Assembly: GCF_018771565.1 (NCBI RefSeq)
Contig: NZ_CP076326.1
Coordinates: forward strand, 558,001 to 622,000
Reading direction: 5' to 3'
Length of the DNA: 64,000 bases
From: Thermoflexus hugenholtzii
Lineage (GTDB): Bacteria > Chloroflexota > Anaerolineae > Thermoflexales > Thermoflexaceae
The translations under genes were made by a program, and so were the position numbers. The notes under the pieces were generated by a model. The model had not been told where the DNA came from. It searched no databases and saw nothing but the letters and a program-made list of their open reading frames with translations. Position 1 is the stretch's first letter. Each line of letters opens with the position of its first letter. This document shows positions 37,306 to 57,549 of this stretch, piece after piece.

Positions 37306-38430
37306 GGTAATCACCCCCCTGAGTAGTGCTCGGTGGTATAATCGGGGCCAGATTCCGACGGAGGTGGGCCCGATGAATCGAAAGCCCAATTCCCAGAACC
37401 CCCCCTGCCCTCGCTGTGGGGCCACCCATGTGGTAAAGAACGGCAGTAAGGGTGGGCGGCCCCGTTGGGTCTGTCGGAACTGCGGGCGCTCGTTTGGGCC
37501 TACCCTGGGCACGGCGATGTATCGCTTGCGTGTGACCCCTGCGGAAGTGGCGCGCACCCTGCTGGTGGTGATGCGTCGGGGGAGCCTGAGCGCCGCTGAG
37601 GAGATCACCGGCCACAAATATGAAACCATTGGCCGATGGCTCCGGATGGCCGCCCAACACGCTGAGGCCCTCACCGAGGTCCTGGTCCACGACCTGCATT
37701 TGAGCGAGGTCGAGGTGGATGCTTTCTGGTCGTTTGTCAAAAAAAGTGTCCAGAGGCTGGAGATCCAGACGCCTCGGCGGGCGGGGTGGGCCCGCGTTGG
37801 GGATGTTTGAGCCAGGACCGGGCGACTCGTTTTGTGGTGGCGTGGGGCTTTGGGTCTTCGGAGGATGAGGTCGCGCCGAAGGTGGTGGCGCAGACCCGCC
37901 AGCGCACATCTGGCAGGGGGGCGTGATCTGGATCAGCGATGGACGGCCGGTCTACCGACGGGCGGTTCGTCAGGTCTATCGGGACGCGCAACCGACGGGA
38001 AAGCGGGGGCGTCCGCCCCTGGTGCTCACGCCTGGGGTGGGGTTGACGCAAGCGGTCAAGCGTCGTCATCAGGGCCGGATGGTGCGCGTGGAGGTGCGTC
38101 AGGTTCTGGGGAGGCGGTGGATTGCCCCTATCCGGTGCATGAGGAACGGTTGAATGGCATGTTGCGCGATCGGTTGAATGCGCTGACGCGTAAGACCCAT
38201 GCCTTTGCGAAGACGACAGGGACCTGGGATGCGCTGGTGATCCTCTGTTTGTTTGAGCACAACTGGCTGCGGCCCCATCGGGCCTTGCGGGAAGCGGGGG
38301 AGGGCCTGCCGGAGGGGCGGCGGTATCGGCCGCGGACGCCGGCGATGGCCATCGGGTTGACCGATCATATCTGGACCTGGGAAGAGTTCTTGACCTTCAA
38401 GCATTATCAATACCAAAAGGAGTGACTACC
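37306..38430 (+). mobile_element. IS1-family-like insertion sequence, copy 2
   Basis: 1125 bp, apparently identical to the copy at 21061-22185, including the terminal repeats. The 8-bp target duplication is GCGACCCA (37298-37305 and 38431-38438), within a REP-like repeat. It separates the thiamine kinase gene from the thiamine-type ABC transporter genes. Sequence identity and intact duplications imply recent movement of both copies. Confidence 0.93.
37373..38425 (+). pseudogene. IS1-like transposase with three -1 frame breaks (copy 2)
   Basis: Same as copy 1: zinc finger, helix-turn-helix and DDE domain spread over three frames. The breaks are at the A7 run 37739-37745, the G6 run 37916-37921 and the G4 run 38108-38111. 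Because both copies share all three, the breaks predate the last transposition, or reflect slippage sites, or a consensus base-calling error. Confidence 0.85.
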
Positions 38431-44408: not shown

Positions 44409-44501
44409 TCAGCGTTTTCGGAAGAAAGCCAGAGAGCGCACAAGGGCAAACACGATGGCGAAGCGGAGGGTGCCGGCCAGCACCGGGAGGATCGCCTCCA
44501 A
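44409..44501 (-). CDS. Possible 30-residue membrane peptide
   Basis: A short frame starting at TTG 44501 and reading EAILPVLAGTLRFAIVFALV then RSLAFFRKR: one hydrophobic helix with a basic end. It follows the small membrane protein gene by 16 bases. No good ribosome binding site is seen. It could instead be a frame-broken tail of that gene. Confidence 0.25.
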   Translation of the reverse strand: MEAILPVLAGTLRFAIVFALVRSLAFFRKR

Positions 44502-44517
44502 TTGAACTCGTATGACC

Positions 44518-44844
44518 TCAGGTCAGATGAGGGGACCTGGCCTGCCGGATCCGCCCCCATTCCCCGAAGGCGATGCCCAGGGGGATCATAAGGGCCAGGG
44601 CATCGAAGAGGGAGCGAGCCTGGCCGGAAAGCCCGGCTGCCAGGGCCAAGGCAAAGCTGAGCCCGATCAAAGCCAGGGCCAGGCGAGGGCGGGGGGATGG
44701 ACGCAAGGGGGAGCGCAACTGCCCGTAGGCCAGGAAACCCAGGGTCAGGGCCTCGATCTTCAAGAGCTCCAGGGAAAGGCCCAGTGCCACCACCGGGATC
44801 AGGAGCATCAGAATCCCCAATAGGTCCAGGAGATCCACCTTCAT
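44518..44844 (-). CDS. Small membrane protein of unknown family
   Basis: 108 residues with three hydrophobic spans (about 5-25, 55-75 and 80-97) and a basic Pro/Arg loop between the first two. GGAGG precedes the ATG at 44844. It lies 20 bases after the DCC-like gene with the Cys-rich tail and probably belongs to the same transcript. I recognise no family. A membrane partner or immunity-like protein for the Cys-rich tail is one possibility. Confidence 0.6.
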   Translation of the reverse strand: MKVDLLDLLGILMLLIPVVALGLSLELLKIEALTLGFLAYGQLRSPLRPSPRPRLALALIGLSFALALAAGLSGQARSLFDALALMIPLGIAFGEWGRIRQARSPHLT

Positions 44845-44864
44845 CTTAGGACCTCCAAGCAAGT

Positions 44865-45686
44865 TTAGCAGAAATAACACAAAACAGCGGCGCAGAACGC
44901 CGCAACTCCGGCCGCGCAAGCAGCGCAGCTAGCGGGGGTATAACAACAGCATACACTGCATAGGCCCAGTCCCTCGGCAATGCAAATCCATATTTCGGGC
45001 TGGTGGCAGCAAATCGCTTGGGAAGGCCTCGGGTGACCCGGAGGGCGGTTTTGGGGAGATCGTGATGCTTCCCCTTCGCCCTTGGGGAGGTCGGCTGTCA
45101 GCAGGATCCTTCCATCTGGATGATAAAGCCGCATGCGCCCTGTCATTGAGGCGCTCTCCTCCCACTCGATCTCTACCACATACAGGACTAGGATCTCCGT
45201 CCCGCGAACTGAGGCGGTCAGGAAGCGATGCGATGAACCCGATGGGAACAGCGGGGCGACCAGGGCGGAGCCCCTCTCAAAAGAAAAAGAATATAGCCAC
45301 ACCTCCTTCCAGTCGGGCTCAGCGTTCCAGGTCTCAAGGCGGAACTGTTTCTGAGCCTGTTGGAAGAGGGCGCTGTAGAGGGGTTCCCCCCGTTGCACCC
45401 GTCGGCGGGAGGGCGGCCGGGATTGGGAGGGGATGGGGGGTCCGGCTGTCCCAGAGCGAAGCGGAGCTCCCGGGCCTTGTAGCGTTAGAAGGCCAAGCAG
45501 AGCCCCTCCGGCCCGGCGCAGGAAATCGCGCCTTCCCCAATCCACGCCCAGCACCGGGCCTCCCATCCGGGCCACCGCCTGGGCCACCCGCAACGCCCGC
45601 ACCGGACCTAAGACCTGCACCAGGCGCGCCCGCAGGGAAAGGCCCGCAAAGATTCGCACCCACTCCCCCTCGATCTCGACGAGCAT
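44865..45686 (-). CDS. DCC-like protein lacking its N-terminus, with Cys-rich tail
   Basis: The frame is open from about 45750, just after a stop. It aligns with the DCC proteins at 55766 and 52436 from their residue 38 on (PEVQALLD, GWQWEPMLVEIEGE), so the CxxC part is lost. It keeps a textbook twin-Arg segment, WGRRDFLRRAGGALLGLLTL. The outer domain differs from the paralogues and ends in about 50 residues with some 15 Cys (CCHQPEIWICIAEG, CSVCCCYTPASCAACAAG). Such tails recall Cys-rich secreted peptides. First usable ATG is 45686. Confidence 0.65.
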   Translation of the reverse strand: MLVEIEGEWVRIFAGLSLRARLVQVLGPVRALRVAQAVARMGGPVLGVDWGRRDFLRRAGGALLGLLTLQGPGAPLRSGTAGPPIPSQSRPPSRRRVQRGEPLYSALFQQAQKQFRLETWNAEPDWKEVWLYSFSFERGSALVAPLFPSGSSHRFLTASVRGTEILVLYVVEIEWEESASMTGRMRLYHPDGRILLTADLPKGEGEASRSPQNRPPGHPRPSQAICCHQPEIWICIAEGLGLCSVCCCYTPASCAACAAGVAAFCAAVLCYFC

Positions 45687-45804
45687 CGGCTCCCACTGCC
45701 AGCCGGGGTGGGCCTGGTCCAGCAGGGCCTGGACCTCGGGCTTCTGCGGGTTGCGCTCCTCTCATCGCTCTCCATCCTCCGGAGGCGAGCCAGGTTCTCC
45801 GCGC

Positions 45805-47718
45805 TTATGGGGGCATCTGCCAGAGGCTTACCCGGCCATCCTCCAGGACTACGGCCAGCCATCGCCCGTCCGGACTAAAGGTGGCGACCGCGTTTGCCCC
45901 CCATCCGTTCAAACGGCCGCCGGGCTTCCCATCCCCCGGCAGATCTCGCCGGAGATCCCACCACATCCATTCCTCCCCGATCTGGATGACCAACCATCGT
46001 CCATCGGGAGAGGTGATCAGTGCTCCGGGCCATCCAGTCAGTGGAAACTCTTCCCGAAGCATGCATCCCGGCACCTCCACCCACCGGCCGCGCCACTGGG
46101 TTTTCATCAACTCCGGTGTGTTTTCCGGCTTCGTGGCTACGCCCAGGGCCAGCAATCGCTGATTATCCGGATGAAAAGCCAGTCGCATCACGTCCACCTG
46201 CCCGAGCCGATCCTGGGCTCCCCACCCCAGATCCGTCGCGCAGACCAGCCGTCCACTGGCCGTTTCCCATATCCGCAAAGGAGTCTCATCCATCGCCGGG
46301 CCCGGGCCGTGCTGGGAACTGCCGGCGGCCACCCATCGTCCGTCCGGGGAAAAGGTCAGCGCCTGGATCGGGTTGGGTCCTCCTTGCGCCCACCACTGCC
46401 AGCGCTCCCTGTCCACTTCCCCCACCCATATGGTCCCATCCTCGGTCCCCACGGCCCACCGCGAACGATCCGGAGCCACTGCCAGACTGTAGACTCCCCG
46501 TGGACCCGGGGGAACTTTCCACGACCGGAGCGTCCGGAGATCCCAAACCCACCGCTCGCCGGCCTGTTCCCCCCTTAAGAGCTCCCTATCTGGCCAAGCC
46601 GGCTGCCACTGTCCTTCCCCCAAGGGGATACGGGTCTGCTCCTGTCCCCCTGGCACCTCCAGCACCCGGATCGTGCCATCGCGCCCCAGATAGGCCAGCG
46701 TCTCTCCGGTGGCGCTGAAGGCCAGTCCGGGCGCCGCCGCTCCCGTCTCGAGCAGCTGCCGCCGATCCCCGGTCGCCGTTTCCATCCACACCGTCTCGCC
46801 TTCCTGCCAGAGCCGCGCGGTTCCCCCAGGCCGGGCAGCCTGCCACACCGTGAGGGGCTCCTGTCGGTCTCCCAGGCGGCGCCCGGTCGCTACCTCCCAC
46901 TCCCCGTGCTGGGAGCGCAGCACCCGTCCCCCGTCCGCGAAGGCCAGGGCCCCGGGGTTCCTCTCGGCCAACCGCTGAACCACCTCACCCGTCCTCAGAT
47001 CCCAGATCGTGATGCCCTCCGCGTCGCTTCCCGCTGCCCACCGGCCATCGGGCGACACCGCCAGTGCCTTCACATCCCCCGTTGTGTTCAGGGCCCCAAT
47101 CTGCTGGCCGGTTTCCACCGAGAGCCGGAGCACAACGCCTGCATCCACCAGCACCTCCTGTCCATCCGGCGTGAACGCGATGGCCTCCCCAGCGCGTGCA
47201 TCCTCAAAATCCGGAAGGGGGAAGGTCCCATGCAGGGTGGGCGTCGGCTCCAAACGCCAGAGGAACCCATGAACGTCGGTCACGGCGGCGAGGAATCGCC
47301 CGTCTGGAGAGAAAGCCAGGTCGTTCACCGGTTCCGGTTCCCGCAACAGCACGTGCTGCGGTTGCTCGTAGGGAGGGTCGTAGAGGGCCAGGGAGGGACA
47401 ACCCCGAAGGCAGGCGATGGCCAGGGTGACGGCGTGGGGCCGTGCGGCCAGGTGGGCGATCCATCCCCGGGATACCCATTTCCCCTGAGGTGGTTCGGAG
47501 GTCAAGTCCATAAGCAGGAGGCCGGTGGTAAGCCCCACCGCCAGGGCCGGGGGCTCCTCCAGCAAGGCCAGCCCGGTGAGGCTTCCCATGCCGCGCGTCC
47601 ACACCTGCACCGGCTCGGGTAGCGTCCGGGGGGTCATTTCCCCTTTGACGCACGCGCCCATCGCCAGTGCAATGCCGATCCAGAAGTAACTGAGCCACCA
47701 CGGTTTCTCGCGCATCAT
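45805..47718 (-). CDS. WD40-type beta-propeller lipoprotein
   Basis: 637 residues. Signal with lipobox (IGIALAMGAC, Cys near residue 21), then many WD40/TolB-like blades with the recurring pattern FSPDGRWxAAG and IWDLRTGE (for example LAVSPDGRWAAGSD, LTFSPDGRWVAAGS). Fourteen or so blade repeats suggest two propellers. Propellers are protein-binding platforms; no catalytic residues are seen. The start at 47718 (MMREK) is chosen for the signal, though the site GGTGGG is weak. The frame continues upstream through relic sequence. Confidence 0.8.
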   Translation of the reverse strand: MMREKPWWLSYFWIGIALAMGACVKGEMTPRTLPEPVQVWTRGMGSLTGLALLEEPPALAVGLTTGLLLMDLTSEPPQGKWVSRGWIAHLAARPHAVTLAIACLRGCPSLALYDPPYEQPQHVLLREPEPVNDLAFSPDGRFLAAVTDVHGFLWRLEPTPTLHGTFPLPDFEDARAGEAIAFTPDGQEVLVDAGVVLRLSVETGQQIGALNTTGDVKALAVSPDGRWAAGSDAEGITIWDLRTGEVVQRLAERNPGALAFADGGRVLRSQHGEWEVATGRRLGDRQEPLTVWQAARPGGTARLWQEGETVWMETATGDRRQLLETGAAAPGLAFSATGETLAYLGRDGTIRVLEVPGGQEQTRIPLGEGQWQPAWPDRELLRGEQAGERWVWDLRTLRSWKVPPGPRGVYSLAVAPDRSRWAVGTEDGTIWVGEVDRERWQWWAQGGPNPIQALTFSPDGRWVAAGSSQHGPGPAMDETPLRIWETASGRLVCATDLGWGAQDRLGQVDVMRLAFHPDNQRLLALGVATKPENTPELMKTQWRGRWVEVPGCMLREEFPLTGWPGALITSPDGRWLVIQIGEEWMWWDLRRDLPGDGKPGGRLNGWGANAVATFSPDGRWLAVVLEDGRVSLWQMPP

Positions 47719-48399
47719 CGGACCCACCAGTAAAGCACCGTTGATCCTCCGCTTACGGAGGCCTCGCATGCGAAATAGGCCCGATAAGCCTGCCCTCCAT
47801 CTCCAAGCATCCTGCATCGTGAAGGAGCCATCGTTCGCTCCTCGCTTCCCCCTCCGCTCGCGGATCGGCTTTCGGTTTTCATGCGATCCAGCCAGCGGAA
47901 GCCGTGATCCTCCAAAAAGGAGGACCAATTCGGGTGGTGTCCTCCAAAAGGGAGGACACCGCGCGGCCATCGGGGTCCTCTGTCCCGGGCGGCCAGGGGG
48001 TCTCCCCGAAGCCCGGCGGCGATGGCGGGGTCCTCCAGCCCGCCGGCCCGCAGGGCCTGTCGGCCGGGGAGTCCCAGACGGGCGAACAGCCGTTGGAGGT
48101 GGGCGCGCCGCGGGCTCCGGCGGATCGACAGGGCCTGGGCGATCTCTTCGTCTAAGCTGGGCCGGGCTGCCCGAAGCCGCCGGAGGCCGTTGAAGAAGCC
48201 GCGGACTCGGATCCTCCGGGGCCACGCGCAGCGCCTCCGCCCACGGCCCCGCATCCCCGCCACCCCACCCGAGCGCCCCCGCTCTCCGGACCGCACCGAT
48301 GCGGCACAGGGTGGACCGTGCGGCTGCAGCGCGGGCCTCCTCGACCGCAGGGCGCATCCATCTCCTGCGCCCGCCCGGTTCCGGATCCCGGGCCCCGCC
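47719..48399 (-). other. Decayed region: DCC N-terminus scar and hairpins
   Basis: 681 bases without an intact gene. Near 47806-47842 one frame reads SERWLLHDAGC, the same as the N-terminus of the DCC proteins (WLLYDAGC), then stops. Two adjacent perfect hairpins follow: TCCTCC/GGAGGA at 47908-47924, and GTGTCCTCC/GGAGGACAC at 47937-47959. The rest contains the LuxR relic listed separately. Confidence 0.6.
47985..48370 (-). pseudogene. LuxR-type regulator relic
   Basis: A frame reading RRAHLQRLFARLGLPGRQAL then RAGGLEDPAIAAGLRGDPL parallels the end of the intact regulator at 56851 (VRTHLARALARLGRVDRVDL, AQGGLLDPRCAALLEEDPL). Further upstream another frame reads STLCRIGAVRRAGALGWGGG against its SLWTPGAVRQAQRWWASWGD. 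At least one frameshift separates the parts and the receiver domain is gone. It lies just ahead of the DCC scar, as the intact gene lies ahead of an intact DCC gene. Confidence 0.55.
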
Positions 48400-49830
48400 T
48401 TAGGGTCCGCCGGAAAGGCGTAGCAACGCCTCCCGTTCGGCCAGATACAGGAAATCGGCCGGCCGGCCCTGCGGCAACGGCGGCGGCGTGGCGACCCACT
48501 CCAGGGCCTCCGAGACCCAGGCCAGCCACCGCCCATCGGCCGAGAGGACCGGGTTGTAGCTCGGCCCGGCCAGCCGACCGGCCTCGCCCCGGCTCAGGAT
48601 CGTCATCCGACCCGTCGCCCGATCCCACACCGCCAGCCACAGGTCGCAGGGCCGCCCCCACACCGGCCGGGCGGGACACTCCGTCGCGCCCACCGACCCC
48701 AGGTTGCGCGCCCGGGTGGCGAAGACCACCCAGCGGCCATCCCCCGAGATCGCCGGACCCTCGGCCGCCCCATCCCCCGGCTCCCCCGCCGCGTTCGCAT
48801 CCACCAGCTCCATCTGCCCCGTCTCCCGGTCATACAGGTAGATGTGGCGGCAGAAAGGCAACGGCTCCGCCCCGGGCCAGGGCGCGCAGGGCTTCAGCGG
48901 GCGATCCACCAGCCGGGCCGCGGCGGCGAAGGCCAGGAAGCGGCCGTCGGCCGAGAGGGCGATGCCCCCTTCCCACGCCCCATCGGTGCCGGGAACCAGC
49001 TGCAGGCCACTGGGCTGGGGAGGATCCTCGGGCCGAACCGGCCGGCTGACCCAGACGGTCTTCCCCGTCTCCCGGTCGTAGAGGAAGACATCGAACTGGC
49101 CGTTGCGGTCCTCCGGGACCACGCCGTCGTCGTTCGTGACGAAGGCCAGAAAGCGGCCGTCGGCAGAAAGGGCCACGAGGGCGCCGCCGGAGGCGGCGGG
49201 GGATTCGGTGGGCGGATGAACCCGATGGAGCCGCTGGCTGTAGCGGTCATAGAGATACACCCCGGGGCCGGGGTTACAGGCGCTGTCGTTGGCCCAGGCG
49301 ATCCAGCGGCCGTCGGCGGAGAGGGCAGGGCCGGCGTGGCCGGCCAGCCCCATACGGGAGACGCCCCCAGGGAGCCATTCCAGCCCGCCGGTGAGGCGGT
49401 CATAGACGGCCAGGGGGTAGCAATCGGGATCGGCAGCGGAGGCGGGGAGCGGGGAACGGGCGAAAAAGGCCAGGAAGCGGCCGTCGGCCGAGAGAGCCGG
49501 GCCGAGGCCGGCGGCTGGCTGCCCCTCCGGGCCCACGCGTAGGGGCTCAAAGACCCCCCGCCCGGCGTCCCAGAGAAAGAGGGACTCCCGGTCCATCCCC
49601 ACCCCCCAGCGGCCGTCGGCGGACAGACGGAGCCGATCTCCGAGGCCGAGCAGCCGGATGAGCTCGGGAGCGGCCGTGGGAGCCGGCGTTGCAGTGGGGA
49701 GCTGTGTCGGGGAGGGCGAAGCCCCGGGCGCGGAGGTCGCGGGCCGATCCGGGGATGCCCCTATGCATCCTCCCAGCAACCCCAAAAAGCTCAGCATCAG
49801 GAGAACTTGGAGAAGAGGTGTTTTCATCAT
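48400..49830 (-). CDS. TolB-like beta-propeller lipoprotein
   Basis: 476 residues. Lipobox LGGC (Cys near residue 22), a Pro/Ala/Thr linker to about 55, then seven or eight blades, each with LSADGRFLAF or a variant, and VYLYDRYSQR/IYLYDRETGQ strands. The start at 49830 is chosen for the lipoprotein signal. An in-frame ATG at 49893 with a better site (GGGGGAAGCG) would add the DCC-like N-terminus MSERWLPYDAGP. No catalytic residues visible. Confidence 0.8.
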   Translation of the reverse strand: MMKTPLLQVLLMLSFLGLLGGCIGASPDRPATSAPGASPSPTQLPTATPAPTAAPELIRLLGLGDRLRLSADGRWGVGMDRESLFLWDAGRGVFEPLRVGPEGQPAAGLGPALSADGRFLAFFARSPLPASAADPDCYPLAVYDRLTGGLEWLPGGVSRMGLAGHAGPALSADGRWIAWANDSACNPGPGVYLYDRYSQRLHRVHPPTESPAASGGALVALSADGRFLAFVTNDDGVVPEDRNGQFDVFLYDRETGKTVWVSRPVRPEDPPQPSGLQLVPGTDGAWEGGIALSADGRFLAFAAAARLVDRPLKPCAPWPGAEPLPFCRHIYLYDRETGQMELVDANAAGEPGDGAAEGPAISGDGRWVVFATRARNLGSVGATECPARPVWGRPCDLWLAVWDRATGRMTILSRGEAGRLAGPSYNPVLSADGRWLAWVSEALEWVATPPPLPQGRPADFLYLAEREALLRLSGGP

Positions 49831-49859
49831 GGCTGTTCCCTTAGGAGAATTGCCTTCAG

Positions 49860-49893
49860 GCCCCGCATCGTAAGGGAGCCATCGTTCGCTCAT
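49860..49893 (-). pseudogene. DCC-protein N-terminal scar
   Basis: ATG at 49893 begins MSERWLPYDAGP, matching MGTRWLLYDAG of the intact DCC protein at 56746; the CxxC and the rest are missing. It is in frame with the propeller lipoprotein gene. The 49894-50031 stretch shows no gene. Confidence 0.6.
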
Positions 49894-50031
49894 CGCTTCC
49901 CCCCGCTTGCGGTGCGGAATCGGCACCGGCCGGGGAGGGGCGGGAGCGGTTCCTCGGCCCCTCCCGCACGCCCCCAGCGTCAGGGCCATTGTCCCACATC
50001 CATCCCCATCGCTTCCACCATCCCACCCGCC

Positions 50032-51750
50032 TTATGGAACCCCCCTTCGAGCTCCCGGGTCTGGATCCCGTCCCCGAGCGACCAACCGCACGGGCGATGC
50101 AGATCCCAGCTGGAGGGAAAGGTCTCTCGACTGATCGTCATCGGCGGCCGGATCGCCGGATTCGTTTGTTCCGGGATGTGAAGCAGGCGATGGCGGGGGG
50201 ATCCATTCAATCAACCCCCACTGACACCGTCCGTCCGAACGAGGGGAGATCGCCTGGGCGCCGATCCACACCCGTTTCAGCAGGCGCCCTTGGATTTCAG
50301 GAAGCAACGCATATATGCCTTGGTAGAAGGGGAAGAGATCCAGGGTCGCCTGGGGGACTCCCTCCAGGTTCAGCCACACCGCCTGTTCCCCATGCTCCCC
50401 CCTTACGGCCAACACGCCGTCTGGAACAGGAACGAGGGGCGGTCGCGCGCCGGCGAGGGGAATTCCAAGGGATCCCGGAGCTGCGGGCAGGCGCAACACA
50501 CGCAGCTCACCGGTTTGCAGATCTTTCAGGAAGACGGCAGGGGGATCGACCCCCCAGGTCATTATGGAGACCCCTTCCAGAAGCCGGCCGGCTTTGAGAT
50601 GGGCTCCCGGGGCAAGGTAGAGGACTCGGGCGGGATCTTCGGGCCCTTTGAGGTGCTGGCCTACGCGCACCATGGCGATCGCCAGCCATTGTCCATCCGG
50701 GGAAAGGGCGTAGTCGAAGAAGTTCCAATCTGAAAGCCCCAGGTCGGCGGGCCTCACCACCCGGCCGGCGTGGAGGTCCAGAAGGAAGCCCTTCCCGAAT
50801 GCATCGTTGGGCACCCCGATGAGCCAGTGAGGGCCGTTTCCGATCTCCCTGGTCGGTGGGATGTTCGGGTCGTCTGATCCAAGGATGTGAAGCGGCAGAT
50901 CGATCCGGCGGGCTGGCGCGCCCATGCGGGCGGGGACTTGCCAGATCCGGATCCGCGGCAGCCCATCCGGGGTTTCCACCTCTTGCAGCGCCAACCCGTA
51001 AGCGCTATCCCGGGCCATGATCACCCCCCACAGTCCCCGCTCACTCTCCAGGACCTTCTCCCAGGTCCCGGTGTTCAGATCTACTCGCCACACCGTCCCG
51101 TTTGGGGAGGAGGCGAGGGCCACTGCGTCCCGGGCCAGGAGAAGGTCACGAATCGGTTCCGGCGGCTCCAGAACGCGGGAGCGGTGATCCTCTTCCAGGA
51201 TCAGGCGAATGAGGCCGACATGGGTGCGGGTGGCCCTGAGCCGTCGGCCATCCGAAAGGGTCCAGCAGCAGACTTCCTCCACGGTCTCTTTCTCACGGAT
51301 GGCGCTCCCGTCCTGGATGAGCCAGTGGTGGGTATTGCCTTCCGTATCCAGTTCTGCGGAGGCCAGGAAACCTGCATTCTGAAGTGGGGGCTCCAGGGGC
51401 CAGCGCCACACCACCGTAAGGCGGCGGCCGTCCCGGGAGATCGACTCCGGGAAGATGGGATACGGAGAACCCGGGAGGTGGCGCAGGCGTCGGTCGGGTC
51501 GGGCCAGCTCCTCCCAGCGGAGATCCCGAAGGTCCAGGAGCGGCGAGGGCGTCTCCCCGCTCGAAATATCCGGTGGAGGAAGGCAGGGGGAAGTGGGGAG
51601 TGTGGGCGGAGGAGGGGTAGAGAGGGGTGAACCGAACCCCTTCTCCAACGTGGGCCGGGGTCCAGGAGCCCGCGGCATCCTACAGCTCAGCAGGCTTAGC
51701 ACCATCAGCATCATGATCGCAATCCGACCCGGCTTAGACAGAACACACAT
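50032..51750 (-). CDS. Propeller-like lipoprotein of the accessory cassette (copy A)
   Basis: 572 residues. Lipobox LSLLSC (Cys near residue 20), a Pro/Thr-rich linker to about 65, then a beta-rich domain with blade-like ALSPDGQWLAIAM, PNGTVWRVDLNTGTWEKVLE and GPHWLIGVPNDAFGKGFLLD. It is paralogous to the protein at 53639 (shared ARMGAPA, LLDLxxGRVxRPxDLGL and LYLxPxxxLxAG), with about 35 extra residues at the end from read-through past the shared stop point. AAGGAG lies upstream of ATG 51750, 14 bases after the Cys-rich gene. Confidence 0.78.
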   Translation of the reverse strand: MCVLSKPGRIAIMMLMVLSLLSCRMPRAPGPRPTLEKGFGSPLSTPPPPTLPTSPCLPPPDISSGETPSPLLDLRDLRWEELARPDRRLRHLPGSPYPIFPESISRDGRRLTVVWRWPLEPPLQNAGFLASAELDTEGNTHHWLIQDGSAIREKETVEEVCCWTLSDGRRLRATRTHVGLIRLILEEDHRSRVLEPPEPIRDLLLARDAVALASSPNGTVWRVDLNTGTWEKVLESERGLWGVIMARDSAYGLALQEVETPDGLPRIRIWQVPARMGAPARRIDLPLHILGSDDPNIPPTREIGNGPHWLIGVPNDAFGKGFLLDLHAGRVVRPADLGLSDWNFFDYALSPDGQWLAIAMVRVGQHLKGPEDPARVLYLAPGAHLKAGRLLEGVSIMTWGVDPPAVFLKDLQTGELRVLRLPAAPGSLGIPLAGARPPLVPVPDGVLAVRGEHGEQAVWLNLEGVPQATLDLFPFYQGIYALLPEIQGRLLKRVWIGAQAISPRSDGRCQWGLIEWIPPPSPASHPGTNESGDPAADDDQSRDLSLQLGSASPVRLVARGRDPDPGARRGVP

Positions 51751-51764
51751 CACATTCTCCTTGT

Positions 51765-52418
51765 TTAACAAGTATAACCAGGATTGTAATAGAAGCGATA
51801 GATGGCCGTGGTCCCTTGAGCGACATCAACACAGCAACAAGGAGCTACTGTCTCGCCTAAGTATCTTTCAAGATGAACATGGGATCCACTATAACAAACT
51901 GTGCACCTGCAATCACGATTTGAGCAAGAGCATGTTGGACAATTGCATTGATCGGATGGGTTTGGCCATGATTTGCAGAGATAGCATCCTCCAACAATAT
52001 CGCCAAGTTTATATGAACGGGAAGTTAAATCAATCCACTGTCCGTTGCTTACAGTAGGATTAGCGACATGACCATACATCACTGAACCAACATAACAATA
52101 CTTTCCGTTATCGTATATATACAAATCAACTGTGATTGAACGAGCGTAGCTATTGTTCGGTTCTTTACAGCAACACAGATATTCGACCCATGTTTGCACG
52201 CGACGAACCGTTGGATAATTGACATATAGACAAATCGATCCGGGTGTTGGGCATGTTGATCCAGTTCCTGCAATGTCAATTGGTGAAGACCAATTCTTGC
52301 AACGACCATGAGCGTTTAAACATCCGCTACAATTCCCGTAGCAAGCTGGGCAATCACAATAATAATCCCGCCCGGTCACGATTCCCGATATCGGTGCATA
52401 AACATATGCATACGCCAT
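51765..52418 (-). CDS. Cys-rich LytM/M23-like protein (copy A)
   Basis: 217 residues with 25 Cys (11.5%). The N-terminus is MAYAYVYAPISGIVTGRD, followed by a Cys cluster, then SITVDLYIYDNGKYCYVGSV, MYGHVANPT, NGQWIDLT, KLGDIVGG and SGSHVHLER. The order APxSGxVT ... YGH ... LGDxxG ... HxHxE recalls M23/LytM zinc peptidases, but the first zinc His is not found (SPID in place of HxGxD). There is no signal peptide. Base composition is far more AT-rich than its neighbours. AAAGGAGG precedes the ATG. The copy at 55191 lacks the middle Cys insert. Confidence 0.75.
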   Translation of the reverse strand: MAYAYVYAPISGIVTGRDYYCDCPACYGNCSGCLNAHGRCKNWSSPIDIAGTGSTCPTPGSICLYVNYPTVRRVQTWVEYLCCCKEPNNSYARSITVDLYIYDNGKYCYVGSVMYGHVANPTVSNGQWIDLTSRSYKLGDIVGGCYLCKSWPNPSDQCNCPTCSCSNRDCRCTVCYSGSHVHLERYLGETVAPCCCVDVAQGTTAIYRFYYNPGYTC

Positions 52419-52435
52419 GGAAAACCTCCTTTCGC

Positions 52436-53419
52436 TTAAAATTTTGTTAATGAGGTTGTAATGATGGGCATCAAGGATCCCTCAGGATCCTGATAAGTCA
52501 CGAGGGTGTAAAGAACATCTTGTTCGATCCAATGCACCATATAGCCATCCACGGTCGGAAGCAGCACCCCAGGGGCCGGCGTGAAGAAAACCTTTGCCGG
52601 TGGGACTGGAATCTCTGGCTGCTCAGGATGCCGCACCGGCCACACTGGATAAGGACGAGGATAAATGGGACGCGCCCACAGGCTCCCTTCGGGTTCAGAG
52701 GCCCGCCCGAAGTCCAGTATCACGATGAACACTCGACCGCCTCCTCGGAACCGGATCACCTGCCCTTGTTGAAAGAGCAACTCTGTTGGCCGGTAGAGGG
52801 GGAAGGGGATCTGCGCTCGTGCCTCGGCCAGATCCTGCACCGGAAGGGTCTCCCCGCGCAGGGCCTCGGCTTCGGGGCTGCCATCGGTCTGGCATAGGAT
52901 GGGAGCGGGGGCACAGCTCACGAAGGAGGGCAGCGGGGCGCCTTCCGGAAGCAGCACGAACCTCTCCCAGAGCTCCCCCTCCCCTGGGCCGAGACGAGGA
53001 GGGGCCGAACCGGCGGTTCGAGGGGTATGGGTCCCTCCGGGGATCCGCCGCAGCAGCGCCAGCCCGGCCAGGGCCAGGCTCTGGCGCAGCAACCGCCGCC
53101 TCCCCCAATCCACGCCCAGCACCGGCCCGCCGTGCCGGGCCACGGCCTGGGCCACCCGCAACGCCCGCACTGGGCCTAAGACCTGCACTAGGCGCGCCCG
53201 CAGGGAAAGGCCCGCAAAGATTCGCACCCGCTCCCCCTTGATCTCAACGAGCATCGGCTCCCACCGCCAGCCGGGACGGGCGCGGTCCAGCAGGGCCCGG
53301 ACCTCGGGCTCCCACAAACTTCGCACCCCCAGCTGCCCGCCGCTCCGGGCTTTCACCTCCCGGGCCAGGGCCGCGCACACGGAACACCCGCTGTCAAAGG
53401 GAAGATACCGTTTTGGTAT
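52436..53419 (-). CDS. DCC-family thiol protein with internal twin-Arg segment (copy A), ATA start
   Basis: 327 residues, aligning end to end with copy B at 55766. The N-terminus PFDSGCSVCAALAREV carries the CxxC of DCC (DUF393) proteins. A twin-Arg hydrophobic segment follows near residue 107 (DWGRRRLLRQSLALAGLALL), then an outer domain of about 190 residues (SFVSCAPAPILCQTD, RPIYPRPYPVWPVRHP, TPAPGVLLPTVDGYM). Where copy B has ATG, this copy has ATA (53417-53419). The next start, GTG 53380, would remove the first active Cys. It may be poorly expressed. Confidence 0.75.
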   Translation of the reverse strand: MPKRYLPFDSGCSVCAALAREVKARSGGQLGVRSLWEPEVRALLDRARPGWRWEPMLVEIKGERVRIFAGLSLRARLVQVLGPVRALRVAQAVARHGGPVLGVDWGRRRLLRQSLALAGLALLRRIPGGTHTPRTAGSAPPRLGPGEGELWERFVLLPEGAPLPSFVSCAPAPILCQTDGSPEAEALRGETLPVQDLAEARAQIPFPLYRPTELLFQQGQVIRFRGGGRVFIVILDFGRASEPEGSLWARPIYPRPYPVWPVRHPEQPEIPVPPAKVFFTPAPGVLLPTVDGYMVHWIEQDVLYTLVTYQDPEGSLMPIITTSLTKF

Positions 53420-53638
53420 GGCCTCGCCGCCCCGGGAGGGATTCCCCTTCTCGTCTTATCCCCTTCGCCCTCGGCGCGCTTCCTCGTTTTTGGAGGAACC
53501 CCGCTTCGATGCGATCCTCCGTGAGTAGCGGAGGGCCTGGGCGATCCTCCGGGCTGGCCGGAGCGGATGTTGCTTAGACATCAGACGAGGCGCGCATTCT
53601 GCGTTTTCCGACTCGGGGGCAGGCAGCTGCGCCCACCC

Positions 53639-55177
53639 TCAGGGGCCTGAGGCCCATTCGACCAGGGCATAGCGGCACGTTTCATCCGGCCCGGGCGTTT
53701 TCAGAACGGCCCCCAGATAGACCCGATTGCCCTGACCCCGGATCCATTCGATGCGGGCGTAGAAAGGAGACAGATCCAGCCGCTCCCGGATTTGCCCCTC
53801 CGGCGTCAGCTGAAGGAGGCGGGCCGGCGTGCCGCGTTCCACCCCGAGCCATACGCCTCGTGCGCTCCCCAGGGGGAGCCCCACTCCCTTCAGGGGCACC
53901 TCGGTGATCCGCCCTCCTCGCTCCAGGCGCATAGCCCGCAGCGTCTCGGCACCCGCTTCTCGAAGGACAATACCGGCCGGATCTTCCAGCCAGGCAACGA
54001 ACAGGGCGCCGGGCTGCTGGATCCCGGCTCGGAGATCCGTCACCGGCGTCAGATAAAGGATTTGGGTCGGATCCTCCGGTCCCTGAGGGGTGTGTCCCGC
54101 GGGCAGCAGCGCGATGGCCACCCATTCCCCGGAAGGGTGCACAAAATATTTCCAGAATCGGAGCGACTGGGGAAGTCCCAAATCGGTCGGACGAATCACG
54201 CGACCGGTTCGGAGATCCAGCAGAAAGCCCTCTCCCAGCTCCTCATTGGGCATGAAAACATACCAGTATGGGCCATCTCCTAACGCCTGGGTCTGGGTTT
54301 CTTCGGGGCTTCCCTCCCGACCGACCCAACGGAGTTTCAGCTCGGGAAGGGGCTCTGCAGGGGCGCCTATCCGCGCTGGGATCCGCCAGACTCGCACGAT
54401 CCCGGGTTCCTCTGGCTGCACAGCCAGGCCGTAGGTTCCGTTGGGGGCCAGCGTAAAGGCATTGCCCAGTTTGCCGGTTTGAGGGGGACGGGGGCTGATC
54501 ACGCGTTCCCAGCGTCCAGAGCGGATCTCCATGCGCCACAGTTCCCCTTCTCCATCCCGCGCGAACAGGATCCCGTTGGCTGCCCTCCATACCCATGTGA
54601 TCTCTGTGGGGGGGTTCAAGGATTGGGCCTGGGGCGGCTCGCCGAGGAAGAGGGACTTTCCGTATCCCCACACCGGCCGCCCATCGGGTAGCCAGGTGTA
54701 GAGGATGCGCTCATCAGGCGGCCGGACCAGCCAGCGATGCTGGGATCCCTCCCGATCGATCAAGGCCTCCGCGATCGCCCCGAACATCTGAGGATGGAGT
54801 TCCAGGCGCACCTTCAACCAGCGGCCATCCGGGGAGCTTTCTTCCAGAATGGGAGGGAAAGGGAATCCGGCCAGCTGGCGGATCTGCGTCCCTGGGAGGG
54901 GAAGTTCTTCCCAGGACCACCCGGCCAGATCCGGCAAGTAAGCGGCTTCCGGGGTTTCCAGGTTTGGCTCCAGACGCCGGCAGGCGGTCGCCGTTGAAGT
55001 TTTCGGGATCGTGGGGGAAGGGATCAGCGACGCGGTTGGGATGGATGGCGAAGGAACAGGGGGGTGTGCCTCCCTGCCAGAGGGCGCCGGAGTTCCGAGA
55101 GGTCCCCCACATCCCAGTGCCATTCCGAGCCAGGCGATCCACAATGCCCGAGCCAGCTTTCGGAGGATCCTGTTCAT
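53639..55177 (-). CDS. Propeller-like lipoprotein of the accessory cassette (copy B)
   Basis: 512 residues. Signal with lipobox GMALGC (Cys near residue 23), Pro/Ser/Thr linker to about 70, then a beta-rich domain with ESSPDGRWLKVRL, LAPNGTYGLAVQ, YWYVFMPNEELGEGFLLDL and VHPSGEWVAIALL. It ends in CRYALVEW, as does copy A (CQWGLIEW). AAGGAGGAGG lies five bases before ATG 55177, 13 bases after the Cys-rich gene. Structure suggests a surface-exposed protein-binding platform. Confidence 0.8.
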   Translation of the reverse strand: MNRILRKLARALWIAWLGMALGCGGPLGTPAPSGREAHPPVPSPSIPTASLIPSPTIPKTSTATACRRLEPNLETPEAAYLPDLAGWSWEELPLPGTQIRQLAGFPFPPILEESSPDGRWLKVRLELHPQMFGAIAEALIDREGSQHRWLVRPPDERILYTWLPDGRPVWGYGKSLFLGEPPQAQSLNPPTEITWVWRAANGILFARDGEGELWRMEIRSGRWERVISPRPPQTGKLGNAFTLAPNGTYGLAVQPEEPGIVRVWRIPARIGAPAEPLPELKLRWVGREGSPEETQTQALGDGPYWYVFMPNEELGEGFLLDLRTGRVIRPTDLGLPQSLRFWKYFVHPSGEWVAIALLPAGHTPQGPEDPTQILYLTPVTDLRAGIQQPGALFVAWLEDPAGIVLREAGAETLRAMRLERGGRITEVPLKGVGLPLGSARGVWLGVERGTPARLLQLTPEGQIRERLDLSPFYARIEWIRGQGNRVYLGAVLKTPGPDETCRYALVEWASGP

Positions 55178-55190
55178 CGTTGCCTCCTCC

Positions 55191-55748
55191 TTAGCAAGCA
55201 GATCCAGCGTTGTAGTAAAAGCGGTAAATCGCGGTGGTGCCTGCGGTCACGCTCGCACAGCAACACGGCGCCACGGTTTCTCCCAGGTTTCGCTCAAGAT
55301 GCACGTGAGCTCCAGAATAACAAGTGAAAGTGCACGTATATGTGCCTCCTATTACGTCTCCTAATTTGAGGGAACTTGAGGTCAAATCGATCCATTGTCC
55401 ATTGTTTACGGTGGGGTTAGCGATATGGCCATACATTACCGAGCCCACATAACAATATTTCCCGTTATCATACACATACAAATCGACCGTGATAGAGCGC
55501 GCGTAGCTGTTGTTGGTCTCCTGGCAGCAACATTTGTATTCCACCCATGTTTGCACACGGCGAACAGTAGGATAGTTAACGTAGAGGTAGATGGATCCGG
55601 TTCCCGCGATATCGATGGGGGAAGCCCAATTCTTGCAGCGACCGTGGGCACTGCCACATCCGTTGCAGTTCCCGCAAGGGCAGCTGCAGTAGGAATCCCG
55701 CCCGGTCACTGTTCCGGAAATGGGCGCATAAACATACGCATACGCCAT
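55191..55748 (-). CDS. Cys-rich LytM/M23-like protein (copy B)
   Basis: 185 residues with 16 Cys. It shares MAYAYVYAPISGTVTGRD, SITVDLYVYDNGKYCYVGSV, NGQWIDLT, KLGDVIGG, GAHVHLERNLGETVAPCCC and IYRFYYNAG with copy A. The HVHLE motif and preceding YGH and LGDVIGG match the second half of M23 peptidases, while the first HxxxD zinc motif is not recognisable. No signal peptide. AAAGGAGG precedes ATG 55748, 18 bases after the DCC gene. More AT-rich than the surrounding genes. Confidence 0.77.
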   Translation of the reverse strand: MAYAYVYAPISGTVTGRDSYCSCPCGNCNGCGSAHGRCKNWASPIDIAGTGSIYLYVNYPTVRRVQTWVEYKCCCQETNNSYARSITVDLYVYDNGKYCYVGSVMYGHIANPTVNNGQWIDLTSSSLKLGDVIGGTYTCTFTCYSGAHVHLERNLGETVAPCCCASVTAGTTAIYRFYYNAGSAC

Positions 55749-55765
55749 GTCTATCCTCCTTTCGA

Positions 55766-56746
55766 TTAAAGTCGAGCTAGTGATTGTGCGATCTTGTAAA
55801 TCGAGGAGCCATCGGGATCGTGATGGGTGAGGAGGGTATACAGGATCGACCTTTCGATCCACTGGACCATATATCCATCGGCGGTGGGCAACAGCACGCC
55901 GGGAGCAGGAGTGAAGGAAATTTTCTCCGGCTGGATCAGGCGCTCGGGTTGGTCCGGATGCCGCACGGGCCAGATGGGGTAAGGTCGAGGATAGATCGGA
56001 CGGGCCCACAAGCGGACTTCCGGCTCTTTCAGGCCGAAATCCAGCATGACGGAGAACACAGATCCTCCCTGCTGGAAGCGAATGATCCGTCCCTGATGAA
56101 GGGGCATCCCGACCGGTTGATACAGAGGGAGGGAGCTTCGTGCCCGTGCCTCATTAAGATCCTGCACCGGAAGGACCTCCCCCCGCAGGGCCTCGGCCTC
56201 CGGGCGGCCATCGGTCTGACATAGAATGGGGGCGGGGGCACAGGTCACGAAGGGAGGAATCGGGGCACCTTCCGGCAGGAGCACGAAGCCCTCCCAGACC
56301 TCGCCCGCTCCGGTGGCGGGCGGGGTGGGCGGGGCCTTCTCAGGCCTGGCCATTGGGGAGCCTCCGGGGAGGCGACGGAGGAGGGCCAGGGCAGCCAGGG
56401 CGCCGCCCTGCTGCAGCAACCGCCGCCTTCCCCAATCCACACCGAGCACCGGGCCTCCCATCCGGGCCACCGCCTGGGCCAGCCGCAACGCCCGCACCGG
56501 GCCCAGAACCTGCACCAGGCGCGCCCGCATCGCCAGGCCCACCAAGACCCGCACCCGCTCCCCTTCGATCTCGACGAGCATCGGCTCCCACTGCCAGCCG
56601 GGACGGGCGCGGTCCAGCAGGGCCTGGACCTCAGGCTCCCGCAAACTCCGCACCCGCAGCCGCCCGCCGCTGAGGGCCTCCACCTCCCGGGCCAGGGCGG
56701 CGCATATGGAACACCCCGCATCGTAAAGCAGCCACCGCGTCCCCAT
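55766..56746 (-). CDS. DCC-family thiol protein with internal twin-Arg segment (copy B)
   Basis: 326 residues. Residues 1-95 are DCC/DUF393-like with CxxC at 12-15 (YDAGCSICAALAREV). A twin-Arg membrane segment lies at 105-125 (DWGRRRLLQQGGALAALALL), and an outer domain follows (FVTCAPAPILCQTDGRPEAE, RPIYPRPYPIWPVRHP, TPAPGVLLPTADGYM). DCC proteins are thioredoxin-like. An inside CxxC domain joined to an exported domain, next to a Cys-rich gene, suggests thiol handling of the partner. GGGAGG precedes the ATG. Confidence 0.82.
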   Translation of the reverse strand: MGTRWLLYDAGCSICAALAREVEALSGGRLRVRSLREPEVQALLDRARPGWQWEPMLVEIEGERVRVLVGLAMRARLVQVLGPVRALRLAQAVARMGGPVLGVDWGRRRLLQQGGALAALALLRRLPGGSPMARPEKAPPTPPATGAGEVWEGFVLLPEGAPIPPFVTCAPAPILCQTDGRPEAEALRGEVLPVQDLNEARARSSLPLYQPVGMPLHQGRIIRFQQGGSVFSVMLDFGLKEPEVRLWARPIYPRPYPIWPVRHPDQPERLIQPEKISFTPAPGVLLPTADGYMVQWIERSILYTLLTHHDPDGSSIYKIAQSLARL

Positions 56747-56806
56747 CGCAGACCTCCCTTGCCTGGGCTTCCGCTTCTCATCCTAGCCCACTCCCCGCTT
56801 CTTGTC

Positions 56807-56828
56807 TGTCCCCCGCGTCGGGGGACAG
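56807..56828. terminator. Hairpin between the LuxR-type gene and cassette B
   Basis: CTGTCCCC and GGGGACAG with a six-base loop, in the 104-base gap. It may attenuate read-through from the regulator. The same stem occurs at 58906 and inside the hairpin at 9704. Confidence 0.5.
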
Positions 56829-56850
56829 ACCTTCCGCGGGCGGTCCCCGT

Positions 56851-57549
56851 CTACCCAAGGCCCATCAGGGCCTCGATCAGCTGCCGGAAGTCCGGCAAGG
56901 GATCCTCTTCCAGCAGCGCCGCGCAGCGGGGGTCCAGGAGGCCGCCCTGGGCCAGCCAGCGGGTCAGGTCCACCCGATCCACCCGCCCCAGGCGGGCCAG
57001 GGCCCGCGCCAGATGGGTGCGGACGGTCTCCGGCGCGATGCCGAGCACGCGGGCGATCTCCTTGTTGCTCAGGCCGTGGGCCGCCGCCCAGGCCACCGCC
57101 CGCTGCTGCGGGCTGAGGGCCGCCCACGGATCGCCCCAGCTCGCCCACCAGCGCTGGGCCTGCCGCACCGCCCCCGGGGTCCACAGCGACGTCCCGGCCA
57201 GGGCCTGCCGGACGGCGGCGAGGAGCCTTTCGCACGGTTGCCCCCGCCACAGGCAGCCCCGGGCGCCGGCCTTCCAGGCCAGGGCCTCCCGGGCAGGGTG
57301 GGGGACTTCCACCAGCAGCAGTCCCGAGCATTCCGGTTGCGCCTGGATGGCGGCGGCCAGCAGCGCCGCGCCGCTGCCGTCCAGCAGCTCGAAGGCCACC
57401 AGCAGGGCGGAAGGGGGATGGCGGGCCTGGGCGACCCGGGCCTCGGCGGCGGTGGCCGCCTCCCAGGCGATGGAGAAGCCCCAGGCGCTCAGGCGCTCGG
57501 CCCAGACAGCCCGGCGCATCGAATCGCTATCCACCAGCCCGACTGCCAT
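56851..57549 (-). CDS. LuxR/NarL-type regulator with atypical receiver domain
   Basis: 232 residues. The C-terminal LuxR helix-turn-helix is clear (LSPQQRAVAWAAAHGLSNKE, IARVLGIAPETVRTHLARAL). The N-terminal 120 residues follow the receiver fold (GLVDSDSMRRAVWAERL), but the phospho-acceptor Asp is replaced: the segment reads LLVAFELLDGSG, with Ala at the Asp site. It probably works without phosphorylation. It lies upstream of cassette B and is the likely regulator. GAAGGGGGG precedes the ATG. Confidence 0.83.
   Translation of the reverse strand: MAVGLVDSDSMRRAVWAERLSAWGFSIAWEAATAAEARVAQARHPPSALLVAFELLDGSGAALLAAAIQAQPECSGLLLVEVPHPAREALAWKAGARGCLWRGQPCERLLAAVRQALAGTSLWTPGAVRQAQRWWASWGDPWAALSPQQRAVAWAAAHGLSNKEIARVLGIAPETVRTHLARALARLGRVDRVDLTRWLAQGGLLDPRCAALLEEDPLPDFRQLIEALMGLG

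Follow-up and report, generated by a model that had tools for sequence, protein, structure and literature searches.

A repeated carrier, Cys-rich protein and lipoprotein cassette in Thermoflexus as a candidate thiol-redox and Tat-export system for disulfide-rich proteins

Because the twin-arginine translocation (Tat) pathway transports folded proteins only, the making of disulfide-rich Tat cargo in the reducing cytoplasm poses a problem, basic as well as practical, that is still open. Precursors of halocin C8 (TIGR04449) consist of a Tat-type signal, a long middle domain and a Cys-rich C-terminal peptide. In this study, a repeated gene cassette of Thermoflexus hugenholtzii was analyzed within a window of 64,000 nucleotides (bases 558001-622000 of the complete 3.32 Mb genome; contig NZ_CP076326.1). 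Each unit encodes, in this order, a carrier with a DCC-type domain and a putative internal Tat signal, a Cys-rich LytM-like protein and a lipoprotein. Relatives of the carrier share the three-part plan of halocin C8 precursors, with a DCC domain added in front and no match over the family's cut-off. The cassette is best explained as a thiol-redox and Tat-export module for disulfide-rich secreted proteins, with which the LytM-like cargo would ride together with its carrier; a probability of about 0.57 is assigned to this explanation. Oxidation and secretion of Cys-rich proteins had been suggested by an earlier sequence-only reading of this DNA and, given the Tat signal and the DCC or MauE proteins, is still the best reading.

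Other described systems resemble the cassette in part. Streptomyces members of the fulvocin C-related proteins (NF033852) have the DCC domain and twin-Arg (RR) segment of the carrier, joined in one frame to a Cys-rich C-terminus; they differ in bearing a short Cys-rich tail as their cis cargo, and none of the window proteins matched NF033852 (cut-off 35 bits). In the literature, no paper was found describing the DCC part of fulvocin C-related proteins, and nothing relevant on DCC/DUF393 with bacteriocins or on halocin C8 with Tat. Maturation of the methylamine dehydrogenase small subunit by MauE/MauD is a further case in which an exported Cys-rich protein has thiol-redox proteins of its own, but here no dehydrogenase is present and the Cys-rich protein is LytM-like. 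According to PMC7794033, a link exists between MauE and the formation of disulfides in that subunit, and mauE/mauD genes beside Cys-rich precursors in Streptomyces were proposed as peptide-modifying clusters; these decRiPPter families differ from the cassette in being confined to Streptomyces, and the available excerpt describes no LytM-like protein, carrier or lipoprotein. A precedent for Tat hitchhiking, in which a signal-bearing partner carries a signal-less one, is FAD glucose dehydrogenase (PMC6719666); unlike such complexes, the cassette holds no cofactor enzyme, and hitchhiking would be its putative mode of transport. EnvC and SpoIIQ, found among the fold matches, likewise combine the LytM fold and a zinc site that is broken, whereas the protein described here is Cys-rich, lacks a signal or coiled coil and is encoded beside a Tat carrier.

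The two near-complete units are composed as follows.

56746-55766, minus strand: unit A DCC protein (whole carrier)
56312..56746, minus strand: unit A DCC-Tat module, a DCC-type domain with CxxC (GCSIC) followed by an internal twin-Arg helix GRRRLLQQGGALAALALL
55766..56311, minus strand: unit A carrier, outer (exported) domain, also found behind a plain N-terminal Tat signal in genomes G354, G253 and G096
55191..55748, minus strand: unit A Cys-rich LytM/M23-fold protein of 185 aa with 16 Cys and without signal peptide
53639..55177, minus strand: lipoprotein A, a putative propeller, with a lipobox-like ALGC, in the position held by PD40/WD40 lipoproteins in other loci
52436..53410, minus strand: unit B DCC-Tat carrier, an open frame with start codon ATA, its module protein 80% identical to that of A
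51765..52418, minus strand: unit B Cys-rich LytM-like protein of 217 aa with 25 Cys and an extra Cys-rich insert, 82% identical to that of A
50032..51750, minus strand: lipoprotein B, with lipobox LLSC and about 36% identity to lipoprotein A

Both minus-strand units and their gene order had been recognized from the sequence only, as had the short spacers and strong ribosome binding sites, and these observations held: intergenic gaps in units A and B measured 13-17 bases, with AAAGGAGG-type ribosome sites ahead of the Cys-rich genes. Codon-usage gene calling missed the AT-richer Cys-rich genes, and reading frames were for this reason read directly. The Cys-rich gene of unit B (51765-52418) has a GC content of 0.30 at four-fold sites versus 0.73-0.96 for most neighbours, as if foreign in origin or under other codon pressure. 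No ATG, GTG or TTG lies upstream of the CxxC of the unit B carrier, where ATA aligns with the ATG of other modules and the first GTG falls between both CxxC cysteines; with ATA as the aligned start codon, translation of this carrier may be poor.

Conservation of the cassette was assessed in a class search (396 genomes) and a phylum search (400 genomes), in which several contexts were contig ends. The nearest named relative among the compared loci is Candidatus Thermoflexus tengchongensis. Within Thermoflexus, the order carrier, Cys-rich protein, lipoprotein was found in G000, G001, G002 and G004, and decayed or cut-off cassettes in G005 and G006; some genomes of the genus lack the cassette. 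Outside the genus, the order including the DCC domain was found in three other families of the class (G257, G077 and G193). Since it recurs in several bacterial families, the order is not due to chance. The possibility raised earlier, that the three genes might be widespread but never together, came out the opposite way, and they can be regarded as a real system. By profile search, the Cys-rich protein was found in 14 of the 396 class genomes, and the inspected strong full-length matches outside the genus (G077, G257, G193, G191, G354, G096 and G253) all have the outer domain upstream; the exception among inspected contexts, G227, is a fragment with a stop. That the protein belongs to an unrelated housekeeping family was rejected, given its patchy distribution and the lack of a Pfam or NCBIfam match.

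Carriers without the DCC domain were found in G354, G253 and G096, starting with a plain Tat signal (MLTRRTFIKALAAFSGG, SRRQFMKGMFAGLG and MLSRRRFLKVAGALGV, respectively); the carrier gene of G096 is frame-broken, and the carriers of G191 and G372 have an incomplete start. A PD40 lipoprotein gene lies downstream in G354, G253 and G372, while none was found in G096. The existence of these carriers implies that the cassette core consists of the Tat carrier and the Cys-rich protein, usually with the lipoprotein, and the DCC domain would be a fused helper rather than core. MauE adjoins the DCC-less cassettes of G253 and G096 (79.7 and 91.2 bits, cut-off 27), being the sole MauE in the 6.9 Mb genome of G253 and one of three in G096. 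Judged from gene neighbourhood, it can be taken as an independent sign of thiol chemistry.

The same comparison bears on the suggestion that the array is decaying repetitive DNA in which a DCC gene family spreads by recombination without its genes functioning as a set. Many truncated modules and scars, together with the ATA start in unit B, fit such a history, but the order is kept in divergent families, whose Cys-rich proteins are 29-38% identical to A with intact frames, and ribosome sites and purifying selection point the same way, making this the most improbable of the explanations considered.

The Cys-rich family (8-25 cysteines per member) gave no match in Pfam or NCBIfam, only chance matches in a sequence search against the PDB, and no relative in the phage records searched. 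An AlphaFold2 model of protein A was built from four sequences (predicted local distance difference test score, pLDDT, 71; predicted template modelling score, pTM, 0.72). Following structural re-alignment, the 44 best-ranked PDB entries were all M23/LytM (Z 8.1-5.2) and the first unrelated entry had Z 4.0. In profile-profile comparison with a pair of M23 proteins encoded in the host genome, the Cys-rich protein aligned in the correct register at a weak score. The N-termini show no hydrophobic signal; the model places a strand at residues 2-16. Invariant across members are D46, H108, H148, H150, C74 and C143, among which are the Asp and HxH known from M23 proteins as well as the (Y/F)GH motif. 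The active-peptidase motif HxxxD/HxH is incomplete, Asp and HxH being kept in 12/12 members and the His four residues before Asp lost in 12/12, with A, S, C, V or Y in its place. The name LytM-like, given from sequence only, is thus right, yet as this His is lost in all 12 the protein is probably a non-enzyme, more likely to bind the cell wall than to cut it. In genome G002 (C184; L122:246-1097), a natural in-frame deletion has left the DCC-Tat module with only the first part of the outer domain, fused directly to the latter half of the Cys-rich protein.

These residues allow for another role, that of a metal-binding protein with Cys, Asp and His ligands, for which DCC or MauE would serve cofactor insertion rather than disulfide formation. 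Conservation of D46, H108, H148 and H150, the invariant C74 and C143, a Cys at the lost zinc-His position in L115, L126 and L194, and the frequent export of cofactor proteins by Tat agree with it. As the Cys count varies from 8 to 25, with most cysteines not conserved between members, and MauE is linked to disulfide formation (PMC7794033), this role is considered improbable.

Less easily set aside, but still unlikely, is that the cassette builds the producer's own envelope: a wall-binding, disulfide-hardened surface protein, favoured by heat and oxidation stress, would be held by the lipoprotein, with no antagonism involved. The host stems from a hot spring, the Cys-rich protein is strongly constrained (proportion of nonsynonymous differences, pN, 0.12; that of synonymous differences, pS, saturated), unlike in an arms race, and the catalytic-site His is lost as in the structural LytM proteins EnvC and SpoIIQ found among the fold matches. 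Such a function is at odds with the patchy distribution (14/396 class genomes), the Thermoflexus genomes devoid of the cassette and the many decayed copies, as well as with a very variable third gene and a module held in common with bacteriocin-family proteins.

The carrier can be divided into an N-terminal stretch of about 100 residues with a CxxC and a likeness to PF04134, an internal twin-Arg segment, and an outer domain without database name. The unit A module alone scored 20.4 bits against PF04134 (E 0.0012), and the DCC proteins of the window scored 17-20 bits, below the gathering score of 27.8. Among 20 aligned modules, 13 matched, all weakly (best E 7e-5). Their assignment to the DCC family, made earlier, is thus borne out as a likeness but not as membership, each protein falling below the Pfam cut-off; the domain works like PF04134 and probably derives from it. 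In units A and B, as in most modules, the CxxC sits within a DxxCxxC context close to the N-terminus. R107 is invariant in the 20 aligned module sequences and RR invariant or nearly so. The Tat model TIGR01409 was passed in G023 (17.3 versus a cut-off of 16.7 bits) and narrowly missed in several other relatives, always at residues about 105-140, and a TatC gene is present in the window's genome.

From these data, export through the cassette can be pictured as follows. The carrier module, the first 130-145 residues, would comprise a cytoplasmic DCC-type (thioredoxin-like) domain, which may oxidise, isomerise or guard thiols, and an internal Tat signal-anchor, and would take disulfide-rich proteins across the membrane folded and oxidised. 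In the LytM cassette the cargo would be supplied in trans, the outer domain of the carrier binding the signal-less Cys-rich protein, whose disulfides may be formed by the aid of DCC or, in cassettes that lack it, of MauE. Carrier and cargo would then pass Tat as a folded complex (hitchhiking), and the lipoprotein may anchor, receive or neutralise the cargo, or protect against it, at the outer face. Outside, the LytM-like protein would bind the wall, probably in competition. Other loci have a bacteriocin-like Cys-rich cargo in cis, the arrangement in most bacteria, often accompanied by a small membrane protein possibly giving immunity. The picture draws on the conserved gene order, the fold and missing signal of the Cys-rich protein, the RR motif, the MauE neighbours, the module common to fulvocin C-related proteins and the module swapping; from these we infer the direction of thiol chemistry, the hitchhiking, the binding and the antagonism.

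Several observations weigh against the export explanation. The function of the DCC domain is read from weak Pfam scores, and CxxC is absent in modules of G023, G003, G000 (2559 kb) and the window at 45 kb, so not every module depends on redox activity. Tat signals seldom stand behind a folded domain of 100 residues, hydrophobicity is only mild in the RR segments of units A and B, and the structure model of the carrier (pLDDT 40) was too poor to be used. The LytM cargo itself matches no bacteriocin, and TIGR04449 scores stayed below the cut-off of 24 (10.9 bits in G023, at most 16.4 elsewhere), the tail at 45 kb in the window giving no match at all; membership of the halocin C8 family was rejected accordingly.

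The DCC-Tat module was found joined to other cargos. In Thermoflexus these are a middle domain with a Cys-rich tail (window 45 kb, G001, G004), a short Cys-rich protein ending in CCSGNNCWWGNICGCGNWRRTGIPC and followed by a large ABC-permease-like gene (G005, G008), and metalloprotease-like frames with HExxH. Modules with a short Cys/Trp-rich protein (L130:3664-4275, L138:6007-6417) are very similar across Thermoflexus species, the gene of an ABC-permease-like large membrane protein beginning 54-61 bases downstream. At L109:14593-14844, L113:3896-4162 and L117:7862-8737, broken DCC modules continue into frames that resemble metalloproteases (HELGHGAGFAH, HEFGHALGLLH). Other Chloroflexota hold many single-copy modules with Cys-rich tails (G023, G528, G561, G737, G128, G549), and small multi-transmembrane proteins follow Cys-tail genes in the window, G004, G003, G023, G528, G561 and G128. 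At L197:5931-7402 (G528), the Cys-tail gene is followed by a small membrane protein gene and then by ABC-2 permease-like and ABC ATPase-like genes, a row resembling the export or self-protection genes of bacteriocin producers. Thermomicrobium roseum has, in a row, a regulator, a DCC-RR-Cys tail gene and three small membrane-protein-like genes. In another family (G172, G184, G246, G206), the module is followed, as read by eye, by a TlpA-like thioredoxin domain; this domain, with CxxC, stands after a DCC-type module in L158, L160, L161 and L172, and a TlpA-like thioredoxin gene immediately precedes the DCC-RR gene in G206 and G077.

The architecture DCC, RR, Cys-rich was also found in ten records of Streptomyces plasmids, and three Streptomyces DCC-RR proteins tested scored 93.8-105.6 bits against NF033852 (cut-off 35). 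In two plasmids (L256:3986-4933, L260:2504-3481), the annotated start of the fulvocin C-related protein omits the DCC domain, which lies in frame upstream; the family thereby gains a conserved N-terminal domain. The antimicrobial likeness noted earlier agrees with these data, as the carrier module has relatives among precursors of bacteriocin type. Since the same module is joined to bacteriocin-like peptides elsewhere, the cassette points to a little-described route for making and exporting disulfide-rich, probably antagonistic proteins; judged by these sequence relationships, the system probably serves contact or peptide antagonism. A wider and more tentative proposal is that antagonism or surface systems of several phyla are built on one exchangeable leader, in which a thioredoxin-like domain and internal Tat signal might fold and export Cys-rich cargo in cis or in trans, including pseudo-LytM proteins, while moving between cargos by recombination. 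If true, a leader that brings along a thiol-redox domain would be a natural answer to the problem of disulfide-rich Tat cargo, perhaps usable for producing disulfide-rich proteins, and it predicts where to seek Cys-rich antimicrobial peptides in Chloroflexota, where little has been described. A function in anti-phage defence was rejected, PADLOC giving no match except a weak one for the WD40 protein of the array.

Synonymous divergence (dS) between units A and B was 0.42 in the module, 1.12 in the outer domain and 2.0 in the lipoprotein, with saturation in the Cys-rich gene; despite the saturated synonymous sites, the two Cys-rich proteins share 82% identity. In a tree of 25 modules, grouping reflects the genome more than the cargo, each cargo class being rejected as a clade (approximately unbiased test, p 0.002, 0.0016 and 5e-91). 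One cargo is common to G000 and G001; its DNA is 98-100% identical between them, against 85-93% for the module, and the identity shifts abruptly close to the twin-Arg segment. It follows from the trees and this break that the module was exchanged or converted between cargos, and from the dS gradient and the non-clade cargo classes that units A and B are old mosaics with a swapped or homogenised 5′ module. Growth by repeated duplication, as proposed from sequence only, is therefore only partly right, simple tandem duplication being ruled out by the dS gradient and the module trees; overlooked in that proposal was the carrier module, which is the spreading unit.

The remainder of the array consists of the following features.

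49861..49893, minus strand: scar, an 11-codon remnant of a DCC module start (MSERWLPYDAG), preceding a lipoprotein gene
48400..49830, minus strand: PD40 propeller lipoprotein (PD40 66.4 bits) of a unit that lost its first two genes
47805..47843 (about), minus strand: scar with a DCC module start (SERWLLHDAGC), preceding a lipoprotein gene
45805..47718, minus strand: WD40 propeller lipoprotein (WD40 94.5 bits) of another decayed unit
44865..45776 (open reading frame from 45686), minus strand: DCC-Tat module without CxxC, with Tat motif GRRDFLRRAGGALLGLL, middle domain and Cys-rich tail CSVCCCYTPASCAACAAGVAAFCAAVLCYFC
44518..44844, minus strand: small membrane protein of 108 aa directly after the Cys-tail gene, with two predicted transmembrane segments and a ribosome site
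56851..57549, minus strand: LuxR-type regulator at the head of the array, with a degenerate receiver-like N-terminus and a GerE helix-turn-helix (GerE 47.8 bits)

The scars at 49.9 and 47.8 kb are indeed starts of DCC genes, whereas the form at 45 kb, earlier counted among the scars or rearranged forms, belongs to another cargo class, with related proteins in G001, G004 and G006. The window thus holds two units, two decayed units reduced to start scars and lipoproteins, and one unit that belongs to a different class of cargo. A relative (83%) of the 48400..49830 lipoprotein is encoded directly after DCC and Cys-rich genes in G004 (L126), and relatives of the 45805..47718 lipoprotein are third cassette genes in L109 and L111. 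From gene position alone, the product of 44518..44844 would be immunity-like.

PD40/WD40 models matched the products of 48400..49830 (p529) and 45805..47718 (WD637) and the third genes in G257, G077, G354, G253 and G372, but no Pfam or NCBIfam model of these repeats matched lipoproteins A and B or that of G193; lipoprotein A gave no Pfam match of any kind. Most third-position proteins in other loci thus match a propeller model, and for A and B the designation is putative. The LuxR-type gene was correctly placed at the head of the array but is not a member of each unit, since of 58 module places 9 have a LuxR gene upstream of the DCC module; a LuxR/response-regulator gene also lies directly upstream of the DCC-Tat genes in G528 and Thermomicrobium roseum. 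Upstream of the array region, an insertion sequence transposase-like fragment is present at window positions 38117-38425.

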